Source of the DNA: Warburgia ugandensis | Lineage: Eukaryota > Streptophyta > Magnoliopsida > Canellales > Canellaceae | Reading direction: 5' to 3' | Assembly: GCA_035236585.1 (NCBI GenBank) | Contig: CP141137.1 | Location: forward strand, 45,902,057 to 45,966,056 | Length of the DNA: 64,000 nt | Shown: one piece after another, positions 2,375 to 64,000 of the stretch | Layout: each line of letters starts with the position of its first letter | How positions within the stretch are numbered: position 1 is the stretch's first letter | Notes under the pieces: model-generated | Told to the model about the DNA's origin: nothing | Database searches by the model: none | The model's input: the letters and a program-made list of their open reading frames with translations, nothing else | Position numbers and translations under genes: made by a program

Positions 2375-2379
2375 GAATG
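2375..2379. repeat. Left target-site duplication GAATG
   Basis: The five bases directly left of the first LTR are GAATG. The five bases right of the last LTR (28548-28552) are GAACG, a one-transition mismatch. Removing one copy and everything between brings the two integrase halves into one continuous frame, which supports these as the flanks of the original insertion. Confidence 0.85.
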
Positions 2380-5131
2380 TGCAACTACCTGAATTTTTAA
2401 GCCCTATTTTATTTTGAAAAATTGAATTGAACAGGAGAATGAAAGTTTATAAATTTTGAATTTTAGAAGTGAGATTTTATAGAAATCAAATTTAGTGAAA
2501 ATACCCTCATAATTAGATTCTATTTTAAAAATAAAATCCAACAACACAAAGAACACTTAAGATAGAGATTGGATGAGAAAGTTTTGAAACTTTTAAGTAT
2601 AATAGAATTTTAATAATTTCATAAATAATATAAAAATATGTTTCAAAAAATGAAAAGAATGAGAATTAGAGGGGGAGCCATTTTGATAACAACACCCCAT
2701 TTTGGTCATCTATGAATAGGAAAAAGGTAGGCAATCATGCCACCCCCAACCGCCCTCCTACACCTGAAAAAGGTCAGCGACGGCGCCACCTATGAGGATG
2801 GTGCATCGCTTGCATTAAATACACCCCCCTTTCCTCATTGCACTCTCTTCTCATCCTTGGACTCATTTCCCCCACCCTCTTCTTATCCTCCCTTTGGCTA
2901 CCTGTTTTCTCCATCATCACTGGTGACGAAGGGATTCCGGTAAGCAATCCATCTCCTCTAGCTGCACGGGTAGAGCCACTCTACCTTCTCTCCCTCCTTT
3001 TCCTTTTTCGGTGTTCTCCCTTCATATCCAGGCTAGATCTGCTGTCATCGACTGGTAGATCATCAGTGAAGATAGATCCAGTGGATCTAAGATGGAAACC
3101 ATTAAAGGACAGCTTAGATGGGAGATCTGAGCCATTTGATGAGTTTGTGGGACCCCAAAACCTTAGAAATCCCCAAAACAGTGGATTTTGGAAGCATCCT
3201 AAGCATTGATCAGTGATCTAATAGTCTAGATTGGACCAACTCATCTCGGTTGGCCAATTAGGTGACCAAGACGCTCACTAGTGACGCGCAATGGAGACGC
3301 AACCATTCGGTGCATCTCCAAGCGTGTGACACCTGCGGGCACAGTTGTGGTTTGACGAAGACATTGCTGCGTCCTAGGTATCGAGACGGAGCTCAATGCA
3401 TCATGATTGCCAAGACACACTAGGGCATTCAGAAAGGCATGTAGTCTCGATAACCTCATTTTGATGCATTTTGATCCATAATTTTAACCTAGACCATTAA
3501 ACAAATCTGGGATACAAAATTTCTAATTTAGAAGGCACGTAGTGATCAATTAGCTAATATAGTAGATCTATATACACAAATCAACCCTAAATTAAGGACA
3601 TCAATCCTTGAATCATAGACTTGACCATTAATAGATAGGATCATAGTCTAAATCGGTGATCTCGACCATTGATTTGTGAATCTAACTAATGATCAATAGA
3701 TAATGGGAAATAATATTTGGATTCTTACCATTAAATTAAACCCAGAATCTCACAATGACCTTGAAGGAGATCTAGGAAAACACAAACAACACTTAAGTGA
3801 CGTCCTTGAGGTAGGTAGTTTAATGCTACTAAGTTTTCAATTGAATTTCAAAACTTAAACAATTTACTTGAAACTATTTCCATGATGGTATGTTTTATAA
3901 ATGATAATGAGATATGGTATTCTTATAATAAGCATGTAAATTATTCTCATGATAAAATGATAGAACAATTTCATGTATGCATTAATTGTATGTTTTGAAA
4001 TAGGTTGCATAAATTGCATGATTTAGTATATATTAAACCTTGAATAATTCTATGATGCTTGAGTTTTGGATTGCATCTATGTATCTACCTCTTTTTTAGG
4101 CTAGTGAGCTTAGTGAGTACTATGTTAAGAGGTTGAACGGGGTTGGCCTCCCCGCTGCTAACCACCAAAGGTGGTAGGTATCTATGCCCAAAGAGGCATA
4201 TATTTTTCTTGATTGCTGTGGTAGGGAAATGACTATTGAAGGTGTTCACGGCAGCCTTTTATACACTTATCCACAGTCTTTGTGAAGGTTGGGGTGGCTA
4301 GTCTCTAGATATTGGGGACACAAGATTCAAAGAGCTAGTTGTGAGCACAGTGTTCCCTATAATTTCTATTTTGTATCGCCATGCATAGTGCATTGAGATG
4401 GTCTTAAACGAGTACTCGTGACCAGTCGGCTGATGTGTTCACTGAGATATCCACATACACAATAACTGTTGTGGGGTTGGGATTCCTAGCATCTAGTTTG
4501 ATTGGTTATTACTTTAAGGAATTTAGTAATGTTTATATTATTACTAATTGATTGATTTTGTTGGAAATTATTTTACTTGAATATATAAATGTGCAAAGGA
4601 ATTACACATGAATACTCATGTTTACATAAGATGGTCGTGTTTTCAAATTACTAGTATTAAATCACCTACTAGGTATAATAAATACTCAACCAAATATATT
4701 ATTTTTCAGATTAGCTCAAGCAAGATTAGAAGAAGTATTAGGAAGTTTTAGTGCTACGATTAAGTGAGTGAAGGTAAAGACAAGTGCAAATGTAGTTGTC
4801 CTAGAACTGGTAGCGATCATTTTAGTACTTGATTTAAATTGACTTTAAGTGATTATTAATAACTTGGGCTTTGATTAACAATCTTGGGAACAATAATTAT
4901 TCATTTTTAGATTTTTTTTTAAATTTTCACGACATGTTTCATTTATTAATGATGTTAAATAATTATTTATTTGTTTTAATTACATAATGATACTCGTGGT
5001 TTTCATGAATGGATTTCAATGAAAAAGAATTTTTTGTTGCATTTATTTTAAAAAATTATTTTTAAATAGAGATCGATCTCTCAAGTGCAAGCTTGTTATT
5101 TTAAATTGTATTATAAAAACCAGGGTCTTCA
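2380..5131 (+). repeat. 5' LTR, outer left end of the compound insertion
   Basis: This 2752-bp LTR starts TGCAACTACC, where sister LTRs start TGTAACTACC, and ends GGTCTTCA just before an initiator-Met primer site. Compared with the LTR at 25519-28547 it lacks about 190 bp near 3530 and has smaller indels. Shared landmarks include the block around CCAAAGGTGGTAGGTA near 4165-4180 and a run ending in GATCGATCTC near 5070. ATG-started frames inside it are short and not conserved between LTR copies, so I call no gene. Confidence 0.9.
2811..2824 (+). promoter_or_regulatory. Candidate LTR TATA-like box (CATTAAATACACC)
   Basis: The motif ATTAAATAC followed by a C-rich stretch recurs at the same place in sister LTRs (near 9957 and 25962 on +, near 12702 and 22681 on -). 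Its conservation, and the C/T-rich sequence after it, fit a core promoter followed by the start of the LTR transcript. No transcription evidence is available. Confidence 0.35.
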
Positions 5132-5135
5132 TAGT

Positions 5136-5147
5136 TGGTATCAGAGA
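5136..5147 (+). other. Primer binding site, initiator tRNA-Met
   Basis: TGGTATCAGAGA begins four bases after the LTR end. The canonical plant retrotransposon site is TGGTATCAGAGC. It primes minus-strand cDNA synthesis and fixes the LTR boundary at 5131. Confidence 0.85.
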
Positions 5148-5272
5148 CCAAGTTCAAGTTATTCACAGCCAAGTTATAAAATAAGGACTTATAATCAATT
5201 TACATCAATAGGAAAACTTTAGATTAGCATTATAGAATTCCTCAAAAGGAGTATTTTGCTTTATTAAAACAT

Positions 5273-8200
5273 ATGTCGTCCAAGGGAATAGGAGGTGCAG
5301 CCCCAAAACCTGTCAATCTCTCAACTAACTCCTTTGGATAAGGAAATGGGATGGCTAAAGCCTTTTAGCTCTTCATTCAACATATGAAACCACAAGCACC
5401 TGTGGCAAGGACCTCATCACTAGAGAGGATTGCTAATCGAATGGATGTCCAACTTGAACAATTTTAGAAGGTGCCTCGTCATTCTCTAATGAAGAATAGT
5501 TAGCAACATTTGAGAAGTGGATCTTCAACATTGAAAAGTCGTTTATAGTGATGAAAATTCCTAAAGAAAGGAAGGTTGCTGTGGTTACTTTTGTACTAAA
5601 AGGTGAATAAAGCTTTTGGTGGAAAATAGCTGAAAGGACATACTTTGATGATAGTAATGTTATCCCTTGGGAAGATTTCAAGATCATAATTAATGAGAAG
5701 TGCTTCCCATGACATGTATGAAGGTAAAAGGCGAAGGAATTCATGGATCTAGAACAAGGCAGCGTATCCATGAATCATTATGAAAATAAGTTTACATGCC
5801 TTTATAGATTCACACCCAACATTTGTGGCATTGAAGAAAATGCTGTAGAGAATTTTGTTGATAGGTTAAACCATTGACTAAGGAACAGAGTGATAGGGTT
5901 TCAACCAACCACCATGGCAAAAGGAGTAGAAATAGCATCTCTTTTTGAAAAGGATTTTTAGAGAGCACAAGTTGATAGGAAAGAGAAGGAGAAGAAGGCC
6001 AACATCAGTGGTCAATTCAACAAAGGAAAAACACCCAATCAGTCTTTTGGATCTTGATACTTGCACAAATGACAATTTGATAATAAAGGAAGAACATTAG
6101 AATCTAAAGCTTACCCCCAATGCAGCAAACATCACCTAGGAAAACCTTGCACCTTGCCTCATTTCAAATATTTTATCTGTGGAGAATTAGGGCACATAGC
6201 CATAAAATTCCCTAATAAGAAGAAAGAGGAAGAGCATAAAGGAGATAAGATTCCTCAAAGCTAAGGATATGTGTTTTCCATTACTTCAGAACAAGCTCAG
6301 GCATCCAACACAGTAGTAGAAGTTATACTTCACATCTATGATAGACTTGCTAGAGTATTATTTGATACCGGTTCTACACATTCTTTTGTATCATGCGAGT
6401 TTGCTTCTTGTATTGATGATATAGTTTAGAACTTAGAATTCTTCTTAGAAATCATGACACCCTTGGGCAAGTCCATTGCCACACAAACATACTTTCAGGA
6501 TGTTCTGATTGTAATTAAGGGCAAACCAATGAACACATATTTAATCCACCTAGATATGACAGACTTTGACATCATACTCGATATGGATTGGTTAGCCTCA
6601 CATCATGCAATTATTGACCGTCGAAAGAAGAAAATTATTTTTAATATTCCTGGAGAAGTGGTGGTATCATTGCAAGGGAGAAGAGATTATTCAGGAGCAT
6701 GTGTTATTTCTACGATAAGGGCAATGAAGCACATTGCTCAAGGATGCCAATCCTTTCAAGCTAAGATAAAACTGACTGAGGTCATAAAACCAAAATTGGA
6801 AGAGGTGGCTGTAATTTGTGAATTTCCAGATGTGTTCCCTAAAGATGTACCAGAGTTACCACCAAAAAGGGAGATAGATTTCACTATTGACCTCATACCT
6901 AGCATAACCTTTATCTCCAAAGCACCATATTGGATGGCTCTAGTGAAATTAAATGAGTTGAAGACCTAACTACAAGAGTTGTTAGACACAGGGTTCATTG
7001 GACCCAGCATATCTCCTTGGGAAGCTCTAGTTCTTTTTGTTAAAAAGAAAGATCAATGAGACTTTGCATTGACTATCAAATGCTGAACAGGGTCATAGTG
7101 AAAACAAATATCCTCTACCACATATTGATGTCCCGTTTGATCAACTCTAGTCAGCAAGTGTCGTTCCCAAGATCAATTTATGATCTAGATACCATCAACT
7201 CAAAGTCAGGGAAGATGATATTTCAAAGACAACATTCAGAACTAGGTACATATACTATGAGTTTAGGGTGATGTCATTTGGGTTGACACATGCACCAGCT
7301 GCATGTATGGATCTTATGAACCAAGTATTCAAAACATATCTAGATAAATTTGTTATAGTGTTTGTTAACGATATTCTGATCTACGTAGAAAGTCTTGAGG
7401 AAAAAATGAGAACAATTACGAATAGTATTAGATACACTTAGAACACACAAATTGTACATAAAGTTTAACAAGTGTGAATTTTGGTTGGAGGAAGTGAAAT
7501 TTCTTGGTAATGTTATTTTTAAACATGGCATTGCCATTCACCCAACAAAGGTTGAAGTAGTGGAAAAATGGAGTACACCCAAGACAGTGACAGAAATAAG
7601 GAGTTTTCAAGGCCTTGCGGGGTACTATCATAAGTTCATTGATGGATTTTCATGCATTTCCTTACCCTTGACCAAATTGACAAGAAGGAACGTGAAGTTC
7701 GTATGGGATGATATGTGTGAAGAAAGCTTCAAAGAATTAAAGCTGAAGTTAACCACTGCACTAGTACTCATGCTGCCATTTGGAAGGGGAGGATTTGAAA
7801 TATATGATAGTGCTTATGGGAAAGGACTGGGATGTGTGCTTATGCAAAATGGAAAGGTAATTGCCTATGCCTCTCAACAATTGAAAAGACCTGAGGTCAA
7901 CTATCCTACCCATGACTTGGAGCTTACTGTGATAGTTTTTGCTTTAAAGATTTAGAGGCACTATTTATATGGAGAAAAGTTTGAAGCATTCATAGATCAT
8001 AAAAGTCTTAAGTGTATCTTTTCAAAATAAGACTTAAACATGCAATAGAGGGGATGGATAGTGTATTTGAAGGATTATGACTTCTCTATTCAATACCATC
8101 CAGGGAAGGCTAATACAGTAGTAAATGCTTTAAGTCAAAAGGCGTAAGGAATGTGTGGAAGCTTACTTTCCAAGAGATGGAAGTTGCTACAAGAGGTAAT

Positions 8201-9591
8201 AGAGTGCAGACCTGAAGTAGGTCATGGTAGATCCTTCACAACATAATTTGACCATGAGATCCACCATTATCAAGAAATTTAGGCAAATGCAGAAAGATGA
8301 TTTTGAGGTACATAAATTAGTTACGAAACCAAGATTTGCTAAGGAGATAGATGACAATTTTCATATGCAAGGGAGATTAGTAGTGCTAGCTAATGATGAA
8401 ATGAGGCAAGAAATTCTCCAGGAAGTACATTAATCTAAGTATACTGTTCATCTTGGTGGTACAAAGATGTATCAAGACTTGAAGGGACATTTGTTGTGGA
8501 ATGGTATGAAAAAGGATGTGGGAGAATTTGTAACACGATGCTTGACTTATCAACAAGTTAAGGCCGAACACTAGAGACCGGCTGGACTATTAGAACCACT
8601 TGAGCTTCCAAAATGGAAGTGGGACCATATTATGATGGACTTCATCATGAGATTGCTTCAGACACCAATGGGATATGATATGATATGGGTAATCATAGAT
8701 CGACTAAACAAATTGGAACACTTTCTTCCAATTTGACAAAATCAATCCACTGATAGCTTTTCTCAGTTGTATATTAAGGAAGTGGTGAGTTTGCAGGAGA
8801 TACCACTGAGTATGATTTTTGATAGGGATAGTGGTTTCACCTCACTATTATGGAGGTTAGTGTAGAAGTCGTTCGGATCTTCATTACATTTCAGCACAAC
8901 TTTCCACCCTTAGACCAATGACCAATCAGAACAGATGATTCAAACATTGGAGGATATGTTTAGGGCATGTGCAATTGACTGGAAGGAGAATTGGGAGACC
9001 TTTTCATTCACCCATATGCTGGAATGAAGTGGGAAAAAATAGAATCATACAGTTAGAGTTGGTAGAACAGTATGCAAACAATGTAAAACTTGTTCGAAGA
9101 TGACTTCTCATAGCTCAAAGTCTAAAAAAGAGTTATGTCAATAAATGATGAAGACATTTGGAATTTGGAGTTGGAGACCATGAGTTCTTGAAGATTTCTC
9201 CACTAAGAATGTTATGAGGTTTGGTATGAAAGGAAAACTTAGTCTTCAATTTATTGGTCCAGTGAAAGTTCTGGATAGAATTGGATTGACTACGTATAGG
9301 CTAGCCTTACCATCGTAGTTACCAGAAGTTACACAATGTTTTTCATATATACATGCTGTGAAAATATATCTCGAATCACACACATGTACTTGAGCAAGTG
9401 CTTGTTGAGTTACACCAGACTTGACCTTGGAAACAAAACCAGTTCAAATTCTGGATAAGAAGATCAAGAAGTTGTGAAATAAAGAAATTTCACCAGTTAA
9501 AGTTCTATAGAGGACTGCATCTATTGAAGAGGAAACCTGAGAAATGTAATTGGAAATGAGGGACAAATATTCTAAGCTCTTTAGTGAGTAG
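5273..9591 (+). pseudogene. Tekay/Del-type gypsy gag-pol, copy 1 (broken)
   Basis: A single decayed polyprotein in the order gag, protease, reverse transcriptase, RNase H, integrase, chromodomain. Gag runs from the ATG at 5273; its zinc knuckle near 6170-6215 has lost two cysteines. The protease keeps FDTGSTHSF at 6361-6387. RT shows MRLCIDY at 7056, but the catalytic box reads FVND (7361-7372), so one Asp is lost. RNase H follows at about 7790-8140. Integrase runs from about 8390 to 9400; its second zinc Cys reads Tyr (CLTY) and about 100 bp near 8990 are missing compared with copy 3. The chromodomain-like tail (ILDKKIKKL) is at 9448-9591. The longest open pieces are 6454-6969 and 7452-7955. 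Not functional. Confidence 0.9.
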
Positions 9592-9636
9592 CTAATTGTA
9601 GAATTTTGAGGACGGAATTCTTTGTTGCGGTAATGA

Positions 9637-10530
9637 TGTAACTACTTGAATTTTTAAGTCTTATTTTATTTTGGAAAACAATATTAAACAAGGGAATGGA
9701 AGTGTTATAAATTTTGAATCTTAGAAGTGTGATTTTATACAAATCAAATATGGTGGAAATACCCTCGTAATTAGATTGTACTTGAAAAATGGAATCCAAA
9801 GATACAAATAACATTGAAGACGGAGGTCGAATGACAAAGTTATAGAACTTTTAGATATAAGGGAATTTTAATAATTTCACAAATAATATAAAATCCATTT
9901 TAAAAAGACAAAAAGGTTGGCAATGGTACCACCTACGAGGATGGTGCATCATCGACATTAAATACACCCCTTTCCCCCATCGTACTCTCTTCTCATCCTT
10001 GGACTCCTTTCCTCTCCCTCTTCTTGTCCTCCCTCTGGCAACCCATTTTCTCCATTGTCATTGGTGGTCTAGGGATTCTGGCAAGCACAAACAGATTTGC
10101 ACCACTAACAAACCCCCAATCCATCTCCTCTGGCTGCTTAGGTAAAGTCCCTCTTCCCCTCTCCCTCCTTTTCCTTTTTTGCCGTTCTCCCCTTTAAATC
10201 TAGGCCAGATCTACTCTCACTAGCTAGTAGATCACCAGTGAAAACAAATTCGGTGGATTTAAGATGGAAACCACTCAAGGAAAGCTCAAATGGGAGATAT
10301 GAGCAGCCCGATGAGTTCATAGGACCCAAAAACCCCAAAAATAGTGGAATTTAAAAGCATCCTAGGCTTTAATTGGTGATTGAAAAGATTTGACGGTCCA
10401 AATTGGACCGTCTCCTCCTAGTTGGCCAGATCAGGTGACCAGGATGCTCTGTGGTGACCCGTGATGGAGATGTAACTATTTGGTGTGTCTCTATGCATGC
10501 AGACATGTGTAGGTGTGGTTGTGGTTTGAT
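9637..10530 (+). repeat. Truncated shared LTR (first about 890 bp)
   Basis: It starts TGTAACTACTTG 45 bp after the polyprotein stop of copy 1 and follows the outer left LTR up to the equivalent of position 3355. At about 10530 the match ends and minus-strand gag sequence of the same family begins. This is the left inversion junction. No primer site or LTR end is present on this copy. Confidence 0.85.
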
Positions 10531-10763
10531 AAAAAATGATGGGGTTATCTTCTGAAATTGTTCAAGTTGAGCCACCACTCGGTCAACAATCCTCTCGGTG
10601 ATGAGGTCCTTACCGTAGGTTCTTGTGGTTGATTATGTATAAACTGCCCCATATATTGTATGAAGAGTTGAAAGGCTTCAGCCATCCCATTTCCCAGTTA
10701 AGAGGAGTCAGTAGGGAGATTGATAGGTTTTGGGGTTGCACCCCCTCTTCTCTTAGGCATCAT
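10531..10763 (-). pseudogene. gag N-terminal fragment of an inverted Tekay-type element
   Basis: On the minus strand the frame starts with a double ATG (10758-10763) and reads MMPKRRGGATPKPINLPTDS, closely matching the gag start of the copies at 5273 and 19960. It is cut off at about 10531, roughly 78 codons in, where plus-strand LTR sequence takes over. Between it and the LTR at 10863 lies a degenerate Met primer site (TGGTATGAGATC on the minus strand). Confidence 0.85.
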
Positions 10764-12708
10764 ATGTTTTATAAGAGCAACATGCTCCTTTTGAGGAATT
10801 CTATCTTACTAACCTAAAATGTTCCTATTGATGTAAACCTATTATGAGGATCTCATACCAGCTGTGATGACCTAGGTTTTTATAATGCAATTTAAAAGAA
10901 CAAGCTTTTGCTTATGAGATCGATCTCTATTTAAAAATAATTTTTTGAAATAAATGTTGTAAATTTTTTGAAATAAATGCTGTAAAAATTTCTTTTTCTT
11001 TGAAATTCATTCGTGAAAACCTTGAGTGTCATCATTACTTCAAATAAATGGATAATGATCTACCATCATTAATAAATGAAACATGCCATGGCAATATGAA
11101 AAATATTAAAAAATGAATAATCCTATCCCCATGATTGTTGTCACAGCCCAAGTTATTAATAATCACTTAAAGTCAATTTACATCAAATACTAAAATGATC
11201 ACTACTAGTACTGGGACAACTACATTCACACTTATCTTCACCTTCACTCACTTGATCATAGCACTAGAACTTAGTGATTCTTCTACATGGTTTAATGTAT
11301 ACTAAATCATGCAATGTATGCAACCTATTTCAAAACCCGCAATTAATGCATATATGAAATTGTTCTATTATTCAAGAATAAAAATGGGCAATGAAAGATA
11401 TAAGTAGTAGCATTTTCAATCAAAATCATGAATCCCAAGAATAATTTACACGCTCATTATAAGAATGCCATATACTTAAATGTTTAAAGGGTAATTGATC
11501 TTAAGTTCCATATAAATCATGTATATAAATTGCATGCATAGCTACTCCGCATTATCATTTCAGAAAAACATACTAAACATGGAAAAAGTTTCAAATAAAT
11601 CGTTTAAGTTTTAGAATTCATTTTAAAACTTAGTAGAATCAAACTACCTACCATAAGAATGTACTTAGGTGTTGTTCGAATTTTTTTCCAATTTGAATCT
11701 TGGATCTCCTTCAAGGTCTTTGTGGGGCCCTAGGCATAATTTAAGGGCAAGAATCCTAGTATTATTTTCCATTCTCTATTGACGATCAGTCAGATTCACA
11801 GATCAATGACCTAGATCATCTATCTAGACTCTGATCCTATCTATCAATGGTCAGATCTATGAACCAAAATTGATGTCCTTAATTCAGGGTTGATATGTAT
11901 ATATAGATCTACTGCATTATCTAATTGATCACTTCTTGGGATCTGATCATCTTTAATCTTATAAATCTATAAGATTTTTGTAGTTTTAAGTTCATGATCA
12001 ATTAAAATTGTTCTTTGATCCTAAATTTTATTGTATAATTAGGTCCATGTTGTCAATAAGAATCCAATGGACCTTTCCGACCATAAATCAGACTTGAATA
12101 GCCTTTTGAATTAGAGATTTTGTGTTTCATATCTATTTGATGGTCTAGCTTAAAATTCTGGGTCAAAACACCTCAAGATGGGGTTAAAATGATGCATCGT
12201 GCTGCGTCTTGGTTCCGCGGATGTAGCTGTGTTCTAGTCGAATCATGACTATGCCTGAGATGAGATGATCCAATCTAGACTGTTAGATCTTTTCGATCAC
12301 CGATCAACGGCTAGGAGGCTTCTAAAACCACTGTTTTGGGGTTTCTAGGGTTTTGGGGTCCCATGAACTCATCGAACAGCATAGATCTCTCATCTGTCCT
12401 TGAGTGGGCACCAGCTTAGATCCGATGGTTCTAATTTCATAGGCGATTTGCCAATTGGTGAGACCAGATTTAGTTTGGATTTGAGGAGGAAATGCTAGAA
12501 AAGGACAAAAGGAGGGAGAGAAAGGGGAGGGACTCTACTTGGCAGTAGAAGGAATGGATTTGGTCATGTTTCTCTAATGGGTACAAATATGATTGTGCCT
12601 GTTGAAACCCTAGTTGCCAGAAAACGGTGGAGAGAAGTAGGTAACCCGAGGGAGGAGAAAAAGAGGGATATAAGAGAGTGTGATGGGGGACAGGGAGAGG
12701 TATTTAAC

Positions 12709-15244: not shown

Positions 15245-15680
15245 TTAACACCGGCAATGCACCATCCTTGCAGGTGGCCCCATCGCTGACCTTGTTCCCA
15301 GGCACAGATGATGGAGATGGGGGTGTCATTATCAAAGTGGCCCCCTCTAATTCTGATTCTTTTCATTTTATTAGACGTATTTTTATATTATTTGTAAAAC
15401 TATTAAAATGCCCTTATACTTAAAAGTTTCGTAACTTTCTCATCCAATCTTTCTTTCCAGTGTTCTGTGTGTCGTTGATTCCATTTTTCGAGTAGAATCT
15501 AATTCTAAAGGTATTTTCACCAAATTTGATTTCTATAAAAACTCACTTTTAATTAAAAATTTATAAAACTTTCATTCTCCTATTCATTCTAGTTTTTTAA
15601 AATAAAATAAGACTTAAAAATTAGGGTTGTTACATCATTACCCCTTTCGAAGAATTTTGTCCTTGAAAATTTGCAATTAG

Positions 15681-18600
15681 CTACTCACTAAAGAGCTTAG
15701 AATATTTTTCCCTCGTTTCCAATTCCGCTTCTTAGGTTTCCTCTTTGACAAGTACATTCCTCCACAGAACTTTAACTAGTGAAATTTCTTTACTTTGCAA
15801 CTTCTTGATCTTCTTATCTAGAATTTAAATTGGTTTTGTTTACAAGGTCAAGTCTAGTCATAACTCGACTAGCACTCACTCATTTACATGTGTGTGATTT
15901 GGAATATATTTTTGCAGCATGGATATATGAAAACATTGTGAACTTCCTATAACTATGGTAGTAAGGCTAGCTTGTATGCAGTCAACCCAATTCTATCTAG
16001 AACTTCGAATGGCCTCATAAATCGAGGACTGAGTTTTCCTTTCATGGAAAACCTCATAACACCTTTAATTAGAGAAATCTTCAAGAACACATGGTCTCCA
16101 ACTTCAAATTTCAACTATCTATGTCATTTATCAGTATAACTCTTCTGTCGACTTTGAGCTGTGCATCTTCGAATAGGGTTCACCTTGTTTGCACACTATT
16201 CTACCAACTTTGACTATATGATTCTATTTTCACCCACTTCATTCCAGCACATGAGCGAATGATAAGGTCTCCCATAGCGCGCTTCGTATGGAGCCATACT
16301 AATGCTTGAATGGCAACTGTTGTTGTATGCAAATCCGACTAATAGTAAGCTCTAGTCAGAATTCTCCTTCCAATCAATTGCACATGCCCTCAACATATCC
16401 TTTAGTGCTTGAATGGTTTGTTCACATTGGCCATTGGTCTGAGGGTAGAAAGCGGTGCTGAAATTTAATGAAGATTGTAATGACTTTTGCACTTACTTCC
16501 ACAATTGTGAGGTGAAATGACTATCCCTCTCAGAAATAATACTCAGTGGTATCCCATGAAAACTCACCACTTCTTTAATCAATAACTGAGACAGACTATT
16601 AGTAGATTGATTTTGTAGGATTGGGAGAAAGTGTGTAGATTTGGTTAGCCGATCTACGATTACTCATATCATATCATGTCCCCTTGGTGTCTTGGGCAAT
16701 CCCACTATGAAGTCCATTGTAATATGGTCTCACTTCCATTCTGGAAGCTCTAGTGGCTATAATAGTCTCACCGGTCTCAGGACTTGTTGACATGTTAAGC
16801 ATTGTGCTATGAATTCTCCACATCCTTTTTCATACCATTCCACCAGAAATGTCTCTTCAAGTCTTGATACATCTTTGTGCCACTAGGATGAATAGTGTAC
16901 CTAGATTGAAGTGACTCTTAAAGAATTTCTTGCCTTATTTCATCGTTAGCTAACACTACCAATCTCCCTTGCATATGAACACTGTCATCTGTCTCCTTGG
17001 CAAACCCTAGTTTCCTAACTAAAGCTTATACCTTGGCATCATCTTTCAGCATGTGCCTAACTTTCTCATTGATAATGGATCTCACAGTCACCTCTTGCGG
17101 CAGCTTCCATCTCTTGGAAAGTAAGCTTGCACACATTCCTTGAGCCTTTTGACTTAAAGCATCTACTACAACATTAGCCTTCCCTAGATGGTATTGAATA
17201 GAGAAGTCATAATTCTTCAAATACTCCATCCATCTCCTCTATCACATGTTCAAGTCTTGTTGTAAAAAGATGTACTTATGACTTTTATAATCTATGAACA
17301 CTTCAAACTTTTCTTTGAATAAATAGTGCCTTCAGATCTTTAAGGAAAATACTATTGCAGCAAACTCCAAGTCATGGGTAGGGTAGTTGACCTCATATCT
17401 TTTCAATTGTTGAGAGGCATAGGCTATCACCTTTCTATTTTGCATAAGCACACATCCCAATCCTTTCCCAAAAGCATCACTATAGATCTCGAATCCTCTA
17501 CTTCTAGATGGTAGCATGAGTAATGATGCAATGATTAACTTCCTCTTTAATTCTTTGAAGCTTTCTTTGAACACATTGTCCCATACAACTTCACATCCTT
17601 TCTTGTCAATTTGGTTAGAGGTAAGGCAATGCGTGAAAATCCTTCAATGAACATATGGTAATACCCTGCAAGGCCTAGAAAACTCCTTATTTCTATCATT
17701 GTCTTGGGTGTACTCCATTTTTCCACTGCTTCAACCTTTGCTAGGTCCACAACAATGCCATGTTTCAAAATAACATGACTTAGAAATTCACTTCCTCTAG
17801 CCAAGATTCACACTTGTTAAACTTTGCATACAATTTGTGTGTTCTATGTGTATCTAGTACTATTTGTAAGTGTTTTGTGTTCCTCAAGATTTTTCGAGTA
17901 GATCAGAATATCATACACAAACACAATAACAAATTTATCTAGATACACCTTGAATACTTGATTCATATGATCCATAAATGTAGCTAGTGCATTTGTCAAC
18001 CCAAATGACATCACCCTAAACTGATAATGTCTAGGTGGTTTTGAATGCTGTCTTTGAAATATCCTCTTCCCTGGCTTTAAGTTGATGATATCCTGATAGT
18101 AAATCAATCTTGGAAAAGACATGAGCTAATAGGAGTTGATCGAATAGGTCATCAATACATGGTAGAGGATATTTGTTTTTCATTGTGATTCTATTCAGCA
18201 TTCGATAGTTAATGCAAAGTCTCATTGATCCGTCTTTCTTTTTAACCAAAAGGACTGGTGCTCCCTAGGGAGATATGATGGGTCGGTTGAGCCCTTTGTC
18301 TTGCAACTCTTATAGTTGGCTCTTCAACTCCTTCAATTCCACTAGAGCCATCTGGTATGGTGCTTCGGAGATAGGGGCTATGCCAAGTATTAGGTCAATA
18401 GTGAATCTATCTCCCTTTTTGCTGGTAACCTTGGTAAGTCTTGAGGGAACACATTTGGAAATTCACAAACTATAACCACCTATTCTAATTTAGGCTTTAT
18501 GACCTCAACAGCTTCTATCTTAGCTAGAAAGAATTGGAATCCTTGAGTAGTGTGCTTCAATGCCCTAATCATAGAAATAACACATACTCCTGAATAATCT

Positions 18601-19960
18601 CTTCTCCCTTGCAATGATACCACTACTTCTCCATGAATATTAAAAATAATTTTCTTCTATCAATAGTCAATAGTTACATGATGTGAGGCTAAACCATCCA
18701 TCCTAAGTATGACATCAAAGTCTACCATATCTAGGTAGATTAAGTTGACGTTCATTTGTTTTCCCTCAATTACAATCGAAACAACCTGAAAGTATGTTTG
18801 TGCGGTAATGGACATGCCTAAAGGTGTCATGATTTCTAAGAAGAAGTCTAAGTTTTGAACCATATCATCAATACAAGAAGCAAACTCTCATGATATAAAA
18901 GAATGTGTAGAACCATTATCAAACAATACTCTAGTAGGTCTATCATAGATGTGAAGTGTACCTTCTACTACTGTGTTAGATGCTTGAACTTGTGCTGAAG
19001 TAATACCAAACAAGTGTCCTTGGCTTCGAGGAATCTAATCTCCTTCATGCTCTTCCTCTTTCCTCTTCTTAGGGAAATTTATGGCTATGTGTCATGCCTC
19101 TCTATAGATAAAACATTTGAAACAGGGCAAGGTGCAAGGTTTGCCTAGGTGATGTGTTGCATTGGGGACAAGCACTAGATTTTGGCATTCTTCCTTTATT
19201 CTCGAATTGTCATTTCTACGGGTACTGAGATCCAAAGGACTGAATGGGTCTTTTGCCTTTATTGAATTGTCTACTGATGTTGGCCTCCTTCTCCTTCTCT
19301 TTCTTATCTGCCTGTGCTCTCTAAAAATCCTTTCCAAAAAGATACGCCACTTCTACTGCTTTCACCATGGTGGTTGGTTGAAACCCTATCATTTCGTTTC
19401 TTAGTCCCGAGTTTAACCCATCCACAAACTTCTCTGCAGTGTATTCTTTAGTGGCACAAACATTGGGTGCGAATCTATGAAGACATGTAAACTTATTTTC
19501 GTACTGATTTATGGATAGGTTGCCTTGATCCAAATCCATGAATTCCTTCTCCTTTTGCTTGTGTACATGTCATGGGAAGTACTTCTCATTAATTATGATC
19601 TTGAAATCCTCCCAATATAACTTTCTATCCCCAAAGCGACCTCCCTTTCTTGGATAATTTTCATTACTTTAAACAAATTTTCAATGTTGAAGATCCACTT
19701 CTCTGTTGTTGCCAACTCTTCTTCACCAAAGAATGATAGGCCATCATGTAAAATCGTTCAAGTTGGGCCTCTATTTGGTCAACAATCTGCTCTGGTGATG
19801 AGATCCTTGTTGCAGGTGCTTGTGGTTGATTATGTATAAACTACCCCATATGTTGCATGAAGAGCTGAAAGGCTTTAGCTGTTCCATTTCTAGATCCACA
19901 GGAGTCAGTAGGGAGATTGACAGGTTTTGGGGTAGCACCTCCTCTTCTCTTAGGCAGCAT
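15681..19960 (-). pseudogene. Tekay/Del-type gypsy gag-pol, copy 2, inverted (broken)
   Basis: The frame begins at ATG 19960 (MLPKRRGGATPKPVNLPTDS) and ends at a TAG at 15681-15683, with the same domain order as copy 1 on the opposite strand. Gag has an open piece at 19321-19539. The zinc knuckle near 19090-19140 is degenerate (CFKCFIYREA). The protease motif near 18885-18925 reads FDNGSTHSF, with N where DTG or DSG is usual. RT open pieces lie at 18031-18249 and 17844-18122; the catalytic box reads FVYD near 17908-17925, losing one Asp. RNase H is at 17332-17574 and 17026-17229. Integrase and the chromodomain-like end run from about 17000 to 15681. Stops occur in every domain. Confidence 0.9.
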
Positions 19961-20099
19961 TTGTTGTACAAGAGCAACATGCTCCTTTTGAGGAATTCTA
20001 CCATAGTAACTTGAAATGTTCCTATTATTGTAAATTAATTATAAGTTCTTATTTCATAACTTGGCTATGAATAAATTGAACTTGGGTTCTGATACCTAT

Positions 20100-23000
20100 T
20101 ATGACGACCCGCATTTTTACAATGCAATTTAAAATAACAAGCTTTCACTTAAGAGATCGATCTTTATTTAAAAATATATTCAAAAATAAATGTAACAAAT
20201 AATTCTTTTTTCTTTGAAATTCATTCGTGAAAAACTTGAGTGTCATTATGTAATTCAAGCAAATAAATAACGATTTAACAATATTAATAAATGAAACATG
20301 CCATGAAAATTTGAAAATTATCTAAAAATAGATAATTACTGTTGCCTAGATAATTAGTCACATCCCAAGTTATTAATAATCACTTCACGTCAATTTACAT
20401 CAAATACTAAAATGTTCACTACTAGTTCCAAGACAACTACATTCACACTTGACTTTACCTTCACTCACTTGATCGTAACACTAAAACTTCTTGATGCTTC
20501 TTCTAATCCTGCTTGAGCTGATTTGAAAAATAATATATTTGGTTGAGTATTTATCATACCCAGTAGGTGATCTGATACTACTAATTTGAAAACATGGCAT
20601 ATAATATGCATAATTTTGAGAAGGGTTTTTCAGGTAATAAAATCACGTAACCATCTTATGTAAACATGGGTATTCATGTATAATTCCTTTGCACATTTAT
20701 ATATTCAAGTAATTGAATTTCCAACAAAATTAATCAATAAATAATAATATAAGCATTACTAAATTCCTTAAAGTAGTAATCGATCAAGCCGGATGCTAGA
20801 AATCCCAACCCTACAGCAGTTATTATGCACGTGGGTATCTTGGTGAACACATCAGCTGACTGGTCAAGAGTACTCATCTAAGACCATCTCAATGCACTAT
20901 GCATGGCCATACAAAAATAGAAATCATAGGGACCACTATGCTCACGACTAGCTCTTTGAGTCCTCTGTCTCCTGTATCTAGAGACCAGACACCACAGCCT
21001 CCATGACGATGATAAATATGTCTCAAAAAGGGTGCCATGAACATCTCCATTGGTCATTTTCCTACCACAGTACTCAAGAAAAATAGGTTCCTCTTTAAGC
21101 ACGGATACCTATCACCTTTGGTGGTTAGAGGCTAGGAGGCCAACTTCGTACCTCTTAGCATAGTCCCACCAGGCTCACTAGCTTGAAAAAAGATAGATAT
21201 GTACATGTGTTCCAAACTCAAGCATCATAGAATTATGCAAGGTTAACATATACTAAATCATGAAATTTATGCAAGCTATTTTAAAACATGTAATTAATGC
21301 ATATATGAAATTATTTCATCTTTCAAGAAGAAAAATGGGCTATGAAAGATATAAGCAATAGCATTTTTAATCAAGATCATAAATCATAAGAATAATTTAC
21401 ATGCTCATTATAAGAATATCGTATCTCATTATCATTTTATAAACATACTAACCATAGAAATAGTTTCAAGTAAATCGTTTAAGTTTTGAAATTTAGATGA
21501 AAACTTAGTAGCATCAGACTACCTACCTTAAGAATGTCACTTAGGAATTTTTTGCATTTTTCTTCAGTTCAAATCCTGGATCTCCTTCAAGGTCTTTGTG
21601 GGATCTTAGGTATAATTTAAGGGTAAGAATCCAAGTAATATTTTCCATTCTTTATTGATCATCAGGCAGATTCATATATCAACTGTCTAGATTCTGATCC
21701 TATTTATAAACGGTCAGATTTATGATCCAAGGATTGATGTCCTTAATTCAGGTTTGATCTGCGTATATTGATCCACTACAGTATCTAATTGATCACTTCT
21801 AAGGGCTTAATCCTCTTTGATCTTATGGAAATATGAGATTTTGTAGTTTCTAGGTCATGATTGCTTACAATTGTTCTTTGATCTTAAATTTTATTGTATA
21901 ATTAGGTTAGCATCATCAAGACAAATCCATCAGACCTTTTTAATCATAAATTAGACTTGTATAGCCTTTTGAATTAGACATTTTGTATTTCATATCTATT
22001 TAACAGTCCAGATTAAAATTCTAATTTAAAATGGGTCAAAACAAGGTTATCGAGACACATAGGGATGGGACACACCAGTGTGGCTTGGCTATCATGATGC
22101 ATTGGGCTGCATCTCAATCAAACCGCGACTGCACCCACATGCGTACGATGCATGCGGGGTACAGTTGCATGGATGCATCTCTATCGTGCGTCACCAAGAA
22201 GTGTCCTAGTTGCCTGACCTGGTCGACTGGGATTAGATTGTTTGATTTGGAGTTTTAGATCTTTCAGTCATTGATCAACGCCTAGGATGCTTCTAAAATC
22301 CATAGTTTTTTGGGTTTCTAGGGTTTTGGGGTCCTACGAACTCATTAGACGGCTTAGATCTCCCATCTGAGCTTTCCTTGAGTGGGCACTTTCTTATATC
22401 CACCAGTTCTGGTTTCATTGGTGATTTGCTAGCCAGTGAGACTAGATTCAGCATGGATCTGAGGGAAAAATGCTGCGAAGGGAGAAAGGGAGGGAGGGAA
22501 AGGTAAGGGACTCTACTTGGCAGCTAGAGGAGTGGATTTGGTGCGTTTTTTCTAGTAGGTGTGGATTTTCCCTTGCCTGCCAAAACCTTAGTAGCAGAAA
22601 AATGATGGAGAGAAGTAGGTAACCAAAGGGAGTAGAAGAAGTGGGATAAAAGAGAGTGCAATGGGGGAAAGGGAGAGGATATTTAATGTCAGCGATGCAC
22701 CATCCTCATGGGCGGCACTGTTGTTGACCTTTTCCCCCGGCATAGACGATGGAGATGGGGGGGGGGGGGTGGCGGCGCAATCACCCACCTTTTTCCCCAG
22801 TGAAGAAGATGGACATAGGGGTCTTGTTATCAAAATGGCCTCCTTTAATTCTAATTCTCTCCATTTTTTCAAACATATTTTTATATTATTTATAAATTTA
22901 TCAAAATTCTCTTATAATTAAAAGTTTTGTAACTTTCTCATCCTATCTTCGTTTTTCGTGTTCTTTTTGTTGTTGGATTTCATTTTTTGAGTAAAATCTA

Positions 23001-23104
23001 ATTATGAGGGTATTTCCACCAAATTTGGTTTCTATAAAATCTCACTTCTAAGATTCAAAATTTAAAAAACTTTCATTGTCCTATTCAATCCAATTTTTAG
23101 AAAC
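20100..23104 (-). repeat. Inverted 5' LTR of copy 2, missing its first bases
   Basis: On the minus strand it ends GGTCGTCATA at 20100, followed by a decayed Met primer site (AGGTATCAGAAC) just left of it. At the other side it runs to about 23104, where some 30 bp of the LTR start are missing and plus-strand pol sequence begins. This is the right inversion junction. Length is about 3.0 kb. It includes a run of ten or more G near 22759. The open frames at 20878-21102 and 22588-22921 lie in LTR sequence and are not genes. Confidence 0.85.
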
Positions 23105-25472
23105 ACAATGTGGATCTTATAAACCAAGTATTCAAAGCGTATTTGGATAAATTTGTTATAGTATTTGTGGATGATGTTCTAATCTACTTGAAAAATATTG
23201 AGGATCACCGAGAACACTTACAAATAGTACTAGATACACTTAAAACACACAAATTGTATGTAAAGTTTAACGTGTAAATATTGGTTGGAGGAAGTCAATT
23301 TTCTAGGTTATGTTATTTCTAAACATGGCATTGCAGTTGACCCAGCAAAGGTTGAAGTAGTGGAAAAATGGAGTACACCCAAGACAGTGATAGAAATAAG
23401 GAGTTTTCTAGGCCTTGTGAGGTACTATCATGAGTTCGTTGAAGGATTTTCATGCATTGCCTTACCCCTGACCAAATTGACAAGAAAGAATGTGAAGTTC
23501 ATATGGGATGATGCATACGAAGAAAGCTTCAAAGAATTGAAGAGGAAGTTAACCACTACACAAGTACTCATGCTGCCATTCAGAAGTGTAGGATTTGAGA
23601 TCTATAGTGATGCTTCTAGGAAAGGATTAGGATGTGTGCTTAATGCAAAATGGAAAGGCGATCACCTATGCCTCTCGATAATTGAAAAGACATGAGGTCA
23701 ACTACCCTACCCATGACTTGGAGCTTACTACAATTGCTTTTGATTTGATGTTCTAGAGGCATTATTTATACGGAGAAAAGTTTGAAGTTTTCACAGATCA
23801 TAAAAGTCTGAAGTACATCTTTTCACAATAAGACGAACATGTGATAGTGAAGATTGATGGAGTATGTTAAGGATTATGACTTCTCTATTCAATACCATCT
23901 AGTGAAGGCTAATGTAGTACTAGATGCTTTAAGTTGAAAGGTGCAAGGAATGTATGTAAGCTTACTTTCCAAGAGATGGAAGTTGTTACAAGAGGTAATA
24001 GAGTGCAGACCTGAAAGTAGGTCATGGGAGATCCTTCATAGTGAATTGGACCATGAGATCCACCATCAATGAGAAAGTCAGATGCAGAAGGATGATGCCG
24101 AGGTACAAACATTTGTTGGGAAACCAGGATTAGCTAAGGAGACAGATGGCAATGCTAGTATGCAAGGGAGATTGGTAGTGCTAGTTAATGATGAAATGAG
24201 GCAAGAAATTCTTTGGGAGGCACATCAATCTAAGTATATTGTTCATCCTAGTGGCACAAAGATGTATCAAGACTTGAAGAGACACTTTTGGTGGAATGGA
24301 TTGAAAAAGGATGTGGGAGAATTCATAACATGATGCTTGAATGGTCAACAAGTTAAGGCAGAACACTAGAGATTGACTAGACTATTATAACCACTCAAGC
24401 TTCCAAAATAGAAGTGGGACCTTATTACAATGGACTTCATAGTGGCATTGCGCAAGACACCAAGGGGACATGATATGATATGGGTAATCATAGATTGGCT
24501 AACCAAATCGGCGCACTTTATCCCAATCCAATAAAATCAATCTACTGATAGCATGTCTCAGTTGTATATTAAGGAAGTGGTGAGTTTGCATGGGATACCA
24601 CTGAGTATCATTTCTAATAGGGATAGTTGTTTCACCTCATAGTTATGGAAGTTAGTGCAGAAGTCATTGGGATCTTCATTAAATTTCAGCAAGGCTTTCC
24701 ACACTCAGATCGACAGGCAGTCTGAATGGATGATTTAAACATGGGAGAATATGTTTAGGCATGCGCAATTGACTGGAAGGAGGATTGGGATGAGAGCATA
24801 CCATTAGTTGAATTTGCATACAACAAAAGTTCCCATTCAAGCATCAGTATGGATTTGTACGAAGCGCTCTAGGGGAGACCTTATTGTTCACCTGTATGCT
24901 GGAATGAAGTGGCTGAAAATAGAATCATACAGTTAGAGTTGGTAAAACAGTGTGCAAACAAGGTGAAACTTATTCGAAGCCAACTTCTCACAGCTTAAAG
25001 TCGATAAAAGAGTTACGCCAATAAACAATGAAGATAGTTGGAATTTGAAGTTGGAGACCATGTGTTCTTAAAGATTTCTCTGACTAAGGGTGTTATGAGG
25101 TTTGGAATGAAAGGAAAACTCAGTTCTCAACTTATTGGTCCATTTGAAGTTCTGGATAGAATTGGATTGACTGCATTCAAACTAGCCTTACCCCCATAGT
25201 TGTCGGTAGTTCACAATATTTTTCATATATCCATGTTGCAAAAATATATCTCGGATCACACACATGAACTTGAGTGAGTGCCTGTCAAGTTACAACATGA
25301 CTTGACCTTGGAAACAAAACCAGTTCAAATTCTAGATAAGAAGATTAAGAAGCTACAAAGTAAAGAAATTTCACCAATTAATGTTCTATGGAGGAATTCA
25401 TCTATCAAAGAGGAAACCTGGGAAGCAAAATTGGAAATGAGGGAAAAATATCCTGAGCTCTTTAGCGAGTAG
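23105..25472 (+). pseudogene. Tekay/Del-type gypsy pol, copy 3, 5'-truncated
   Basis: The copy starts inside the RT domain ([18 protein letters not shown]) and keeps the catalytic box FVDD (23164-23175), the only one of three copies here with both Asp residues. RNase H follows in the long open piece 23285-23695. Integrase has zinc-finger residues near 24225-24350, core block TKSAHFIPI near 24505, and SNRDSCFTS near 24620, where the second catalytic Asp has become Asn. It retains the segment LVEFAYNKS near 24808 that copy 1 lacks. The chromodomain-like tail is the best preserved here (25278-25472, ending KYPELFSE). Gag, protease and the start of RT are absent. Confidence 0.9.
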
Positions 25473-25518
25473 TTAATTTCCAAATTTTGAGGATGAAATT
25501 CTTTGTAACGAGTAATGA

Positions 25519-28500
25519 TGTAACTACCTAAATTTTTATGTCTTATTTTATTTTGAAAAAATGGATTGAATAGGAGAATGAAAATTTTATAAATTTTGAA
25601 TATTAGAAATGAGATTTTATAGAAATAAAATTATGTGAAAATAACTTGATAATTAGATTCTACTTGAAAAATGGAATCCAATGGCACGAAGAACACTGAA
25701 GACGGAGATCGGATGAGAAAGTTATAGAACTTTTAAGTATAAGGGCATTTTGACAATTTCACAAATAATAAAAAAATTGTTTAAAAAAAATGGAATGAAT
25801 TAGAATTAGAGGGCGGTCATTTTGATAACAACACCCCCATCTCCATCGTTTGCGCTGAGTAAAAAGGTAGGCAGTTGCATCGCCCACCCCCTAGTCTTCG
25901 TCTGTTGAGCAATGAGAAAGGTTAGCGTTGGTGTCACCTGCGAGGATGGTGTAACACCAATGTTAAATACTCCCCCTTTCCCCCAACGCACATTCTTCTC
26001 AACCCTGGACTCCTTTCCCTCCCTCTTCTTCTCCTCCCTCTAGGCACCCATTTTCTCCATTGTCATCGGCAACTTGGGAATTCTGACAAACACAAATAGA
26101 TCTGCACCACCATAAAAACCTCTAATCCATCTCCTCTGGCTGCCCAAGTAGAGCCCCTCTCCCTTGTCTCCCTCTTTTTCCTTTTCCGGTGTTCTCCGCT
26201 CAGATCCATGCTGGATTTGGTCTCACTAGCTGGTAGATCATTTGTGAAAATAGACCTAGTTGATCTAAGTTGAAAACCACTCAAGGACATCTCAGATAGA
26301 AGATTTTTCCATCTGATGAGTTTGTGGGAGCCCAAAACCCTAGAAACCTGCAAAACAGTGGATTTTAGAAGCATCCTCGACGTTGATCAATGATTGGAAA
26401 GATTTGAAGGTCCAGATTTGACCGTCTCTTCCTGGTCAGTCTGGTTAGGCAACCAGGATGCTCTCTGGTGATGTGCATAGGAGACACAATCATTTGATGC
26501 ATCTTCATGCGTGCACGTACGATGCATGCTGGCACGATCGCAGTTTGACTGTGATGCCGTTGCATCTTAGGAACCTAGACACAACACAGTGTGTCATGAT
26601 TGCCAAGACACACCTACACATTCCATAAGGCACATCCCATCCCAGTGAGTCCCAGTAATCTCGCTTTGATGCGTTTTGATCCAGAATTTTAATCTAAACC
26701 ATTAAATAGATTAGAAATACAAAATCTCTAATTCAGAAGGCTATACAAGTTTGTTTTATGATTGAAAAGGTATGTTGCACTCGTCTTGACGATGCATACC
26801 TAATTATACAATAAAAATTTAGGATCAGAGAACAATTTTAACTGATCATGACTTAGAACCTATAAAAATCTCATAAATCTATACGATCAAAGATGATTAG
26901 ACCCCAAGAAGTGAACAATTAGATAACACAGTAGATCTATATACACAAATCAACCCTAAATTAAGGACATCAATCCTTGAATCATAGACTTGACCTTGAT
27001 AGATCAAATCAGTTTCTAGATTGATAATCTAAACCATTGCTCTGTGAATATGATTAATGATTAATAGAGAATGGAAAATAATACTTGGATTCTTACACTT
27101 AAATTATACCCAGGACCCCACAATGAGCTTGAAGGAGATCTAAAAAAACATTTAGGTAACATCCTTGAGGTAGGGAGTAATTGAATTCCAAAACTTAAAC
27201 GATTTACTTGAAACTATTTCCATGTTTAGTATGTTTTTGGAATGATAATGAGATATAATATTCTTATGATGAGCATGCAAATTATTATCACGATTCATGA
27301 TCTTGACTAAAAATGCTACTGTTAGTATCTTTTATAGCTATTTTTATTCTTTAATGATAGAACAATTTTATATATACGTTAATTATATGTTTTGAAATGG
27401 GTTGCATAAATTGCATGATTTAGTATATGTTAAACCTTGCATATTTCTATGATGCTTGAGTTTTGGAATACATGTATATATTTATCTTTTTTCAAGCTAG
27501 TGAGCATGGTGGGCACTATGCTAAGAGGTTGTATGGGGTTGGCTTCCTGGCCTCTAACCACGAAGGTGGTAGGTATATGTGCCCAAAGAGGCACCTATTT
27601 TTCTCAATTGTTGTGGTAGGGAAACGATTGCTAGAGATGTTCATGGTACTCTTTTTGAGACATATCCACATCGAATGTGGATATGTGATGGATGATCTCT
27701 AGATACCATAGACACGATTTCGAGAGCTAGTCATGAGCATAGTTATCCCTTTGGATTCTATTTTGTACTGCCATACATAGTGCATTGAGATGGTCTTAGA
27801 TGAGTACTCGTGATTAGTTGGCTGATGTGTTCACCGAGATACCCACGTGCATAATAACTACTGTAGGGTTAGGATTCCTAGCATATGGTTTGATCGATTA
27901 CTACTTTCAGGAATTTAGTAATGTTTATATTATTATTAATCAATTGATTTTGTTGAAAATTCTATTACTTGAATATAAATGTGCAAAGAAATTATACATG
28001 AATACCCATGTTTACATAAGATGGTTGCATGATTTTATTGCCTAAAAAATCCTTCTTAAAATTATGCATGTTGTATGCCATATTTTCAAATTAGTAGTAT
28101 TATATTACCTGCTAAGTATGATAAATACTCAACCAAATAAATTATTTTTTAGATCAGCTCAAGTAGGATTAGAAGAAGCGTCATGAAGTTTTAGTGCTAC
28201 GATTAAGTGAGCAAAGGTAAAGACAAGTGTGAATGTAGTAGTCCCAGAACTGGTAGTGATTATTTTAGTACTTGATGTAAATTGACTTTAAGTGATTATT
28301 AATAGTCTTGGGAACATTAATTATTCATTTTTAAATATTTTTTAAATTGCAATGGAATGTTTCATTCACTAATGATGTTAATTCATTATTGAATTATATA
28401 ATGACACTCGGGGTTTTCATGAATGAATTAAAAAAAATAAAATTTTCTACTACTTTTATTTTAAGAAAATAGTTTTTAAATAGAGATTGATCTCTCAAGT

Positions 28501-28547
28501 GAAAGCCTGTTATTTTAAATTGCATTATGAAAACCTGAGTCATCACA
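25519..28547 (+). repeat. 3' LTR, outer right end of the compound insertion
   Basis: This 3029-bp LTR starts TGTAACTACC, 46 bp after the stop of copy 3, and ends GAGTCATCACA. Directly right of it is GAACG, the partner of GAATG at 2375. It is the most complete LTR of the family in the window and a good reference for the deletions in the others. A TATA-like ATGTTAAATAC lies near 25960. Confidence 0.9.
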
Positions 28548-28552
28548 GAACG
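28548..28552. repeat. Right target-site duplication GAACG
   Basis: Partner of GAATG at 2375-2379, differing by one C/T transition. It forms part of the integrase codons continued at 28553 on the minus strand. Confidence 0.85.
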
Positions 28553-29646: not shown

Positions 29647-30974
29647 AAAACTTGTTCGTATTTTTTGTGAGTGAAAGGGGTATTGTAATATAGCTTATGC
29701 AAGTATAAGTAGATCCCATGGGGATTTGACTTGAAGAAATTAGAGTTTAAATAAAATTTAATATCTACAAATTAAAAGAATTGATAGGAATTAACTAATA
29801 ATGAACTCAAAATTTAGATATATTGAATTAATGAAAAGTACAAAATTCTAAACGAAAAAAGGTAGAAAATTAAATGAATTAACCAACTAAAAATTAATTT
29901 TCCTAGCTTGATCATGGCAAATTTCTTCAAATTCGGTGACATGAGAGTTGATCAACCTTCATCAATCTCTTCCTCATATCTCTGATTAGGGATTCTATGG
30001 TCAAATTATTCAAAATTTTCAAAATTTTGATAATCTAGACTAAGGAAAATGTTTGAGGTTTGGATGGCTTAGATCAAATTCTTGGAAGACATACTGAGGA
30101 TCATGACCTATGGATAAGCTAGGAATTATCCTAAGATGAAGATCTAAAAATTAATTGAAAATTTGAGGAGAAGAAGATCTAAAACTAAACTGATCCTTCT
30201 TAATTGGTATGTTTAAAGTTTTGTTTGAGAATAAAATAAAGCTAAATTAGAATCATCTGAATCTTGCTTTATATGTATGATTGGCACCGATGACCATCTG
30301 ATTGTTAAATTTTACAAATCAATGGGTGGATGGTCAATTGGAGCTAAAATGAATATTTTATCTAAAAATTGCAAAATTGATCAATTAGATAATCTATCCA
30401 AATGCTAAATTGAGGGTATTTTGGACAAATTAAACACTTAAGGCACTCCCTAACAAGTATTTTGCTAGTCTCGAGCAAACCATGCTGAAAACTAATCTCA
30501 AATTCCCAAAAATTGTTTTCAAGTCAATTGCTACTTTTTCTTAGAGAATTACCTACAATAAATCTATCACTTATCCTTGCCCTGAACTGACCCTTATCTC
30601 AAGGAGCTCTTTAGTTTACTCATTTGTGTCTTTGGTTGTCCATTTGTTATTTTTTCCTCTAAGGGGTCCTCTCCAATAAATAACTACCATTAAAAAATAG
30701 TTACTTAATATATTCTATTTGTAGTTTTAAACCATGGGCAGGTTATTTGTACGTTATCCATTTCCTATAATGATATGCATGATGCTTCTTTATATCATTA
30801 GCTATTGATTAAGTGTTGTTATGTTATGGGTCATGGTTTACAATTTAGTAATTTTTTCTATTTAGATATTTTTGAGATTTTTATTTATTTTGAAAATATT
30901 TATAACTTTATATATAATTCAATACTAAGTCATGATATATGTTGCCAATATGTGTTGTCCTTGAGCTAGATTGG
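29647..30974 (-). repeat. Athila-type LTR, minus strand, right end cut by the next element
   Basis: It begins at the primer site with the same terminal sequence as 1-53 in reverse. It continues with a block like GATCCCATGGGGATTTGACTT (29727-29746), typical of the end of such LTRs. No frame is open. At 30975 the LTR start of a Tekay-like element interrupts it, so its own 5' end is not in view. Confidence 0.6.
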
Positions 30975-63868: not shown

Positions 63869-64000
63869 TGACACCCTGGGTTTTCTAAAGCCTATTTTCA
63901 TATATAATAGTAATAATAATAATAATGATACATTTAGTAAAATAGACGAGATCCCTGAGTGAAAAACTAATAATTAATATAATTACAATAATCATATCAA
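63869..64000 (+). mobile_element. Start of another LTR element (partial)
   Basis: From TGACACCCTGGG the sequence no longer matches the host LTR and resembles a Tekay-like LTR start. It has (AAT)n at about 63910-63930. The five bases before it, TATCA, would be the target duplication. The element runs off the window. Confidence 0.5.

Follow-up and report, generated by a model that had tools for sequence, protein, structure and literature searches.

A 26-kb Ty3/gypsy retrotransposon array with an inverted middle unit inside one target-site duplication in Warburgia ugandensis

The window analysed here is a stretch of 64,000 nucleotides from Warburgia ugandensis (assembly GCA_035236585.1, contig CP141137.1, positions 45,902,057 to 45,966,056). 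Self-comparison of the window, in which matches shorter than 150 and shorter than 60 bases were left out, reveals that 2380-28547 is built from pieces of one retrotransposon family (Table 1). The pieces run L1(+), I1(+), L2(+), then I0(-), L3(-), Iz(-), L4(-), then Iy(+), L5(+), with sharp junctions, J1 and J2, separating the three groups. There are five LTRs, two of them shortened; a full LTR measures about 2.75-3.03 kb and a full internal region about 4.5 kb. A sequence-only reading of this DNA had described three gag-pol copies with an inverted central stretch. The inversion is seen at 10531-23109, where LTRs and a full internal region lie on the minus strand. The count of copies holds in part: I1 and Iz are full length, Iy lacks gag, protease and the N-terminal part of reverse transcriptase, and I0 is an extra piece of ~330 bp. 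A third layer is present, a diverged relative having left a solo LTR inside L3. This solo LTR opens with TATAATG, not with the expected TG.

Table 1. Parts of the array and its borders (window positions).
Feature	Position	Strand	Remarks
Left target-site duplication GAATG	2375-2379		adjoins LTR start TGCAAC; pairs with GAACG
L1, outer 5' LTR, U3 version A	2380-5133	+	from LTR alignment
I1, full-length degenerate internal region	5134-9636	+	PBS-like TGGTATCAGAG directly after L1
L2, first ~890 LTR bases, U3 version A	9637-10530	+	cut at J1
J1	10530/10531		L2(+) meets I0(-)
I0, ~330 bases of internal-region 5' end	10531-10862	-	contiguous with L3 3' end
L3, LTR, U3 version B	10863-15634	-	split by solo LTR
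Nested solo LTR of diverged relative	12709-15244	+	perfect target-site duplication TTAAC at 12704-12708 and 15245-15249
Iz, full-length degenerate internal region	15635-20099	-	
L4, LTR, U3 version B	20100-23109	-	first ~26 bases gone; exact point blurred
J2	23098-23111		L4(-) meets internal region (+) inside reverse transcriptase
Iy, 3' internal part from within reverse transcriptase onward	23111-25518	+	
L5, outer 3' LTR, U3 version A	25519-28547	+	TGTAAC...ATCACA
Right target-site duplication GAACG	28548-28552		

Taken together, the copies carry the domains of a Ty3/gypsy element in order: gag, protease, reverse transcriptase, RNase H and integrase. Pfam matches in I1 comprise RVP_2 (3.3e-16), RVT_1 (3.4e-10), RT_RNaseH_2 (2.1e-17) and SH3_Tf2-1 (6.2e-10), with a weak gag (E 0.035); three of the six I1 pieces gave no Pfam family. 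Four of five Iz pieces match Retrotrans_gag (8e-07), RVP_2 (3.1e-16), RT_RNaseH_2 (9.3e-20) and SH3_Tf2-1 (8.2e-15), and the sole Pfam match of the fifth (16496-16663) is to an unrelated family, Ferrochelatase, below the cut-off at E 0.037. Iy matches RVT_1 over profile positions 134-185 (2.9e-08), RT_RNaseH_2 (6.5e-10), Integrase_H2C2 (3e-12) and SH3_Tf2-1 (8.7e-14). Gag is accordingly found in Iz and weakly in I1, RVP_2 in I1 and Iz, RVT_1 in I1 and Iy, and RT_RNaseH_2 and SH3_Tf2-1 in all three copies, while no array piece gives a Pfam match to rve. The longest open stretch within the internal regions is 181 codons. The ends are likewise those of Ty3/gypsy elements, with TG..CA LTR ends, the primer-binding site TGGTATCAGAG after L1 (presumably a match to initiator tRNA-Met) and a target-site duplication alike at four of five bases. 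By LTR length and ends, the family may belong to the Tekay/Del-like lineage of chromoviruses.

The outermost LTR ends both lie on the plus strand, as had been claimed, beginning at 2380 (TGCAAC...) and ending at 28547 (...ATCACA) between GAATG and GAACG. A match of at least four of five bases has a chance of about 0.022 at this base composition, so the duplication match is weak on its own; continuity of the target gene is the stronger evidence. The integrase halves do rejoin as predicted: removal of one duplication copy and the array gives GVDFMG/SFPPSFGNIYILSVVDYVSKWIEA on the minus strand with no frame change. Pfam places Integrase_H2C2 on the right flank piece (37.4 bits) and rve on the left flank piece (profile positions 22-102, 18.5 bits), and the joined flank peptide extends the rve match to profile positions 11-102 (21.2 bits), both rve scores being below the Pfam cut-off of 32.6 bits. 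The flank integrase gene contains stops; what matters is that it reads on from one side of the joint to the other. The target retrotransposon is putatively named Athila, following the sequence-only reading. The evidence is good for a single integration site of the outer plus-strand unit and for a tandem (dimeric) plus-strand array there. A single target-site duplication encloses outer LTRs of the same orientation, as in tandem LTR retrotransposon arrays.

The joint between I0 and L3 is a genuine LTR/internal joint, in the proper LTR-PBS order and inverted. L2 stops at ~890, L4 reaches ~26, and internal positions ~355-2175 are missing at the two junctions; I0 (~1-330) and Iy (~2175-end) do not overlap. 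The minus unit is bordered on one side by the outer end of L4, lacking ~26 bases, and on the left by the LTR/internal joint followed by J1. No target-site duplication is left for the minus unit, and no long homology is seen at J1. Seven 60-base direct words are repeated within the array, which contains no inverted 45-mers. None of the 12-mers of 23085-23125 (J2) recurs in the window; four 12-mers of 10505-10560 (J1) do, one that spans the joint recurring at 47049 and three beside the joint matching 3344 and 26609-26610. Assembly error through collapsed repeats, earlier named as a possible refutation of the structure, is weakened by the lack of inverted 45-mers and of recurring 12-mers at J2. 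As the copies are only ~80% alike and the exact repeats are short, wrong joining or collapse of repeats appears unlikely from the sequence.

The internal copies are almost equally distant from one another. I1, Iz and Iy are 83-85% identical in pairs (15-17% apart), and the short I0 is 80-82% identical to the other internal copies (18-20% apart). In the region common to I1, Iz and Iy, the odd-one-out counts are 172, 175 and 142; all three copies differ at 24 sites and agree at 1729. Because these counts are near equal, no internal pair is clearly closer. Stop codons served to assign the codon phase, and sites that were unphased or had conflicting phase (48, 45 and 33 of the latter for I1-Iz, I1-Iy and Iz-Iy) were dropped, leaving 3010 of 4353, 1779 of 2317 and 1652 of 2331 sites phased. 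Differences at the first, second and third codon positions amount to 0.171/0.142/0.169 for I1-Iz (p = 0.15), 0.152/0.128/0.148 for I1-Iy (p = 0.46) and 0.156/0.133/0.165 for Iz-Iy (p = 0.31), with no significant codon-position bias among the three copies. A stricter phase assignment gives 0.189/0.159/0.146, 0.165/0.133/0.157 and 0.131/0.139/0.140 in the same order. The control, a comparison with related internal regions elsewhere in the window, gives 0.345/0.295/0.516 in total; the third-position excess is present in the piece at 36134-37010 (0.329/0.310/0.581) and absent from that at 59770-60329 (0.383/0.263/0.372), and thus holds for one of two controls. Since the codon positions differ about equally, most divergence of the array copies came once selection had stopped, following insertion or a little earlier; being mostly post-insertion, it places the events close in time. 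A gathering of long-separated family members is disfavoured, since the comparisons lack a codon-position bias. Comparing codon positions in this way tells pre-insertion from post-insertion divergence, and could serve for other old arrays.

Further repeats lie outside the array. Direct repeats at 55029-56717 and 61200-63870, about 85% identical and both starting TGTAACATCCC, look like the LTR pair of a related plus-strand element; the latter repeat carries about 990 extra bases (61672-62660), and the control piece at 59770-60329, between the two, is 58.8% like I1. The control piece at 36134-37010 is 56.7% like the gag-protease part of I1, and its third-position excess points to a different family. 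A stretch at 30972-33009 resembles the LTR of the array family at 59-79% and contains a 424-bp tandem duplication (31980-32403 and 32397-32820, 88.2% identity).

Pairwise comparison of the LTR pieces other than L2 gives about 79-83% identity (about 18-21% apart); comparisons with L2 give 67-78% (22-33% apart) and are in part misaligned. In a U3 block of ~300 columns (~463-773; window positions about 2827-3100 for L1), the five LTRs fall into two sets that match their orientation: version A occurs in the plus-strand L1, L2 and L5, and version B in the minus-strand L3 and L4. Over 408 complete columns, 32 of 81 two-against-three sites unite L3 with L4 (22 transitions and 10 transversions; support 100), the next best split having 9, and a 21-bp gap is common to L3 and L4 alone. 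In four realignments of the block, the sites uniting L3 with L4 number 27, 27, 31 and 22, no other split has more than 10, and support stands at 98, 98, 100 and 100. The quartet that pairs L1 with L5 and L3 with L4 has 62 sites versus 17 and 18 over 1361 sites, and columns 540-810 hold 35 of the 62. Some consecutive sites of the U3 block, in columns 543-557, may owe their pattern to a slight shift in the alignment. For the LTR sequence outside the block the tree is almost star-like, with an L3+L4 inner branch of 0.0095 (support 49). There, L3 does not group with L4 in its 5' piece (6, 7 and 11 sites with L1, L5 and L4; 9, 2 and 6 with L2, L5 and L4), sites near the LTR 3' end split evenly, and small gaps conflict, such as one base common to L4 and L5.

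Because the U3 version follows LTR orientation, the favoured reading of the minus unit is a sibling element that had a U3 block of its own: most likely a separate nested sibling of nearly the same age, not a flipped part of the first insertion. A separate nested sibling predicts the U3 split; copying or inversion in place would need conversion as well to explain it. The sibling signal could be mimicked if L3 and L4 had undergone conversion in the block. The claim that the whole array grew at one site thus survives for the outer plus-strand unit and falters at the middle unit, whose minus-strand LTRs carry a different U3 block. The block disagrees with the derivation of every unit from one insertion; outside it, the test is silent. 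The presence of two U3 versions amid otherwise star-like LTRs suggests modular exchange of LTR parts between siblings.

The favoured history, with a probability of about 0.6, combines a plus-strand tandem dimer, a nested minus-strand sibling and a later rearrangement at the left border of the latter. A Ty3/gypsy element entered the integrase gene of an older retrotransposon in a single plus-strand integration, as the outer LTR ends, the near-perfect duplication and the restored reading frame show. This element would have become a tandem dimer, read from the parts as L1-I1-L2-I2-L5; reverse transcription or unequal LTR recombination could have been the route. A close sibling carrying another U3 block may then have inserted in minus orientation into I2, at ~2175 within reverse transcriptase. 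If the opposed LTRs L2 and L3 recombined, the 5' part of I2 would have been flipped to lie beside L3; a deletion would afterwards have joined L2 at ~890 to I2 at ~330, giving J1. I0 and Iy would fail to overlap because both are remaining parts of one I2. At J2, L4 ends within ~26 bases of the true LTR end, which fits a nested element that has eroded; for a break placed at random in a ~7.3-kb unit, the chance of falling so near an LTR end would be roughly 1% per break, with four breaks in all.

The sequence-only reading corresponds to a single insertion that grew to several tandem units by LTR recombination and whose middle was then inverted, sequence being lost at the breakpoints. This history is unlikely, though it accommodates the single target site, the star-like divergence of the internal copies and most of the LTR, and the genuine LTR/internal joint between I0 and L3. 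It does not predict orientation-linked U3 versions unless conversion is added, and a clean inversion of a tandem array is rejected because the junction coordinates do not match (L2 ends at ~890 and L4 at ~26, with internal ~355-2175 missing). The nearest rival to the LTR-LTR inversion step is a minus-strand tandem dimer of the sibling, nested in the plus dimer, with one larger deletion at J1 and no inversion. Its fit to the U3 types and the I0-L3 joint is direct, and tandem LTR elements are frequent in plants (PMC11899658, PMC1950507). Still, two dimers and a deletion of ~10 kb would be needed, and I0 and Iy would fail to overlap by chance alone, leaving this route somewhat less credible than growth with inversion.

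Two further schemes assemble the structure by other means. The whole 26-kb array might have been pre-assembled, if sibling RNAs were co-packaged and a version B cDNA entered or joined a version A dimeric cDNA before integration in one step; such a concatemer would agree with the single target site and with the near-equal age of all copies, but seems quite improbable. Template switching in a plus dimer, copying L1-I1-L2, returning on the opposite strand through I2-L2-I1-L1 and then proceeding forward, would produce an inverted duplicate, presumably of the DUP-TRP/INV-DUP type. Two switches would account for every junction, and the piece order and extents fit; however, the scheme predicts L4 nearest L1 and L3 nearest L2. 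In the U3 block L3 groups with L4, not with L2, which disfavours an inverted duplication by template switching and makes it highly improbable.

If the nested-sibling history is correct, this locus bears on how such arrays are read. What a single outer duplication proves is one event, and that for the outer unit alone. An array that looks like one insertion can conceal a second, and LTR haplotypes allow an inverted copy to be told from a newcomer.

Tandem LTR retrotransposon arrays within one target-site duplication are frequent in plants including rice, often of the gypsy type, and a single insertion has been argued for them (PMC11899658). Like the present array, they string multiple LTRs and internal regions together within one short duplication, whereas their copies at two described loci are 85-99% alike, against about 80% here (PMC11899658). 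The available text of that paper presents no inverted unit: "orientation" and "opposite" occur 0 times, and "inver" twice, both in the title of a reference on Mutator inverted repeats. Among the matches listed in the literature, an inverted unit inside one duplication has no clear precedent, which is no proof of absence. Tandem arrays are also described for Cassandra (PMC7215508), and template switching or LTR recombination has been proposed as a route to tandem arrays (PMC1950507). The Angela, Squiq and Opie complexes likewise have three LTRs, two internal regions and flanking target-site duplications (Sabot and Schulman 2007, PMC1950507); the Warburgia array adds an inverted middle unit and truncations, and its L1 and L5 are not clearly the closest pair outside the U3 block. 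"Russian doll" nesting (PMC1950507) has a parallel in the minus unit, which is enclosed by a plus unit of its own family and itself encloses the solo LTR, although this minus unit has no recoverable duplication. Recombinants from ONSEN bursts (PMC5668417) similarly differ mainly in one block and are otherwise alike, whereas the Warburgia array is an old remnant in which exchange itself is not observed. Tandem dimers and nesting are both known, and the locus is an unusual but ordinary combination of them: an unusually tangled case of ordinary plant genome growth.
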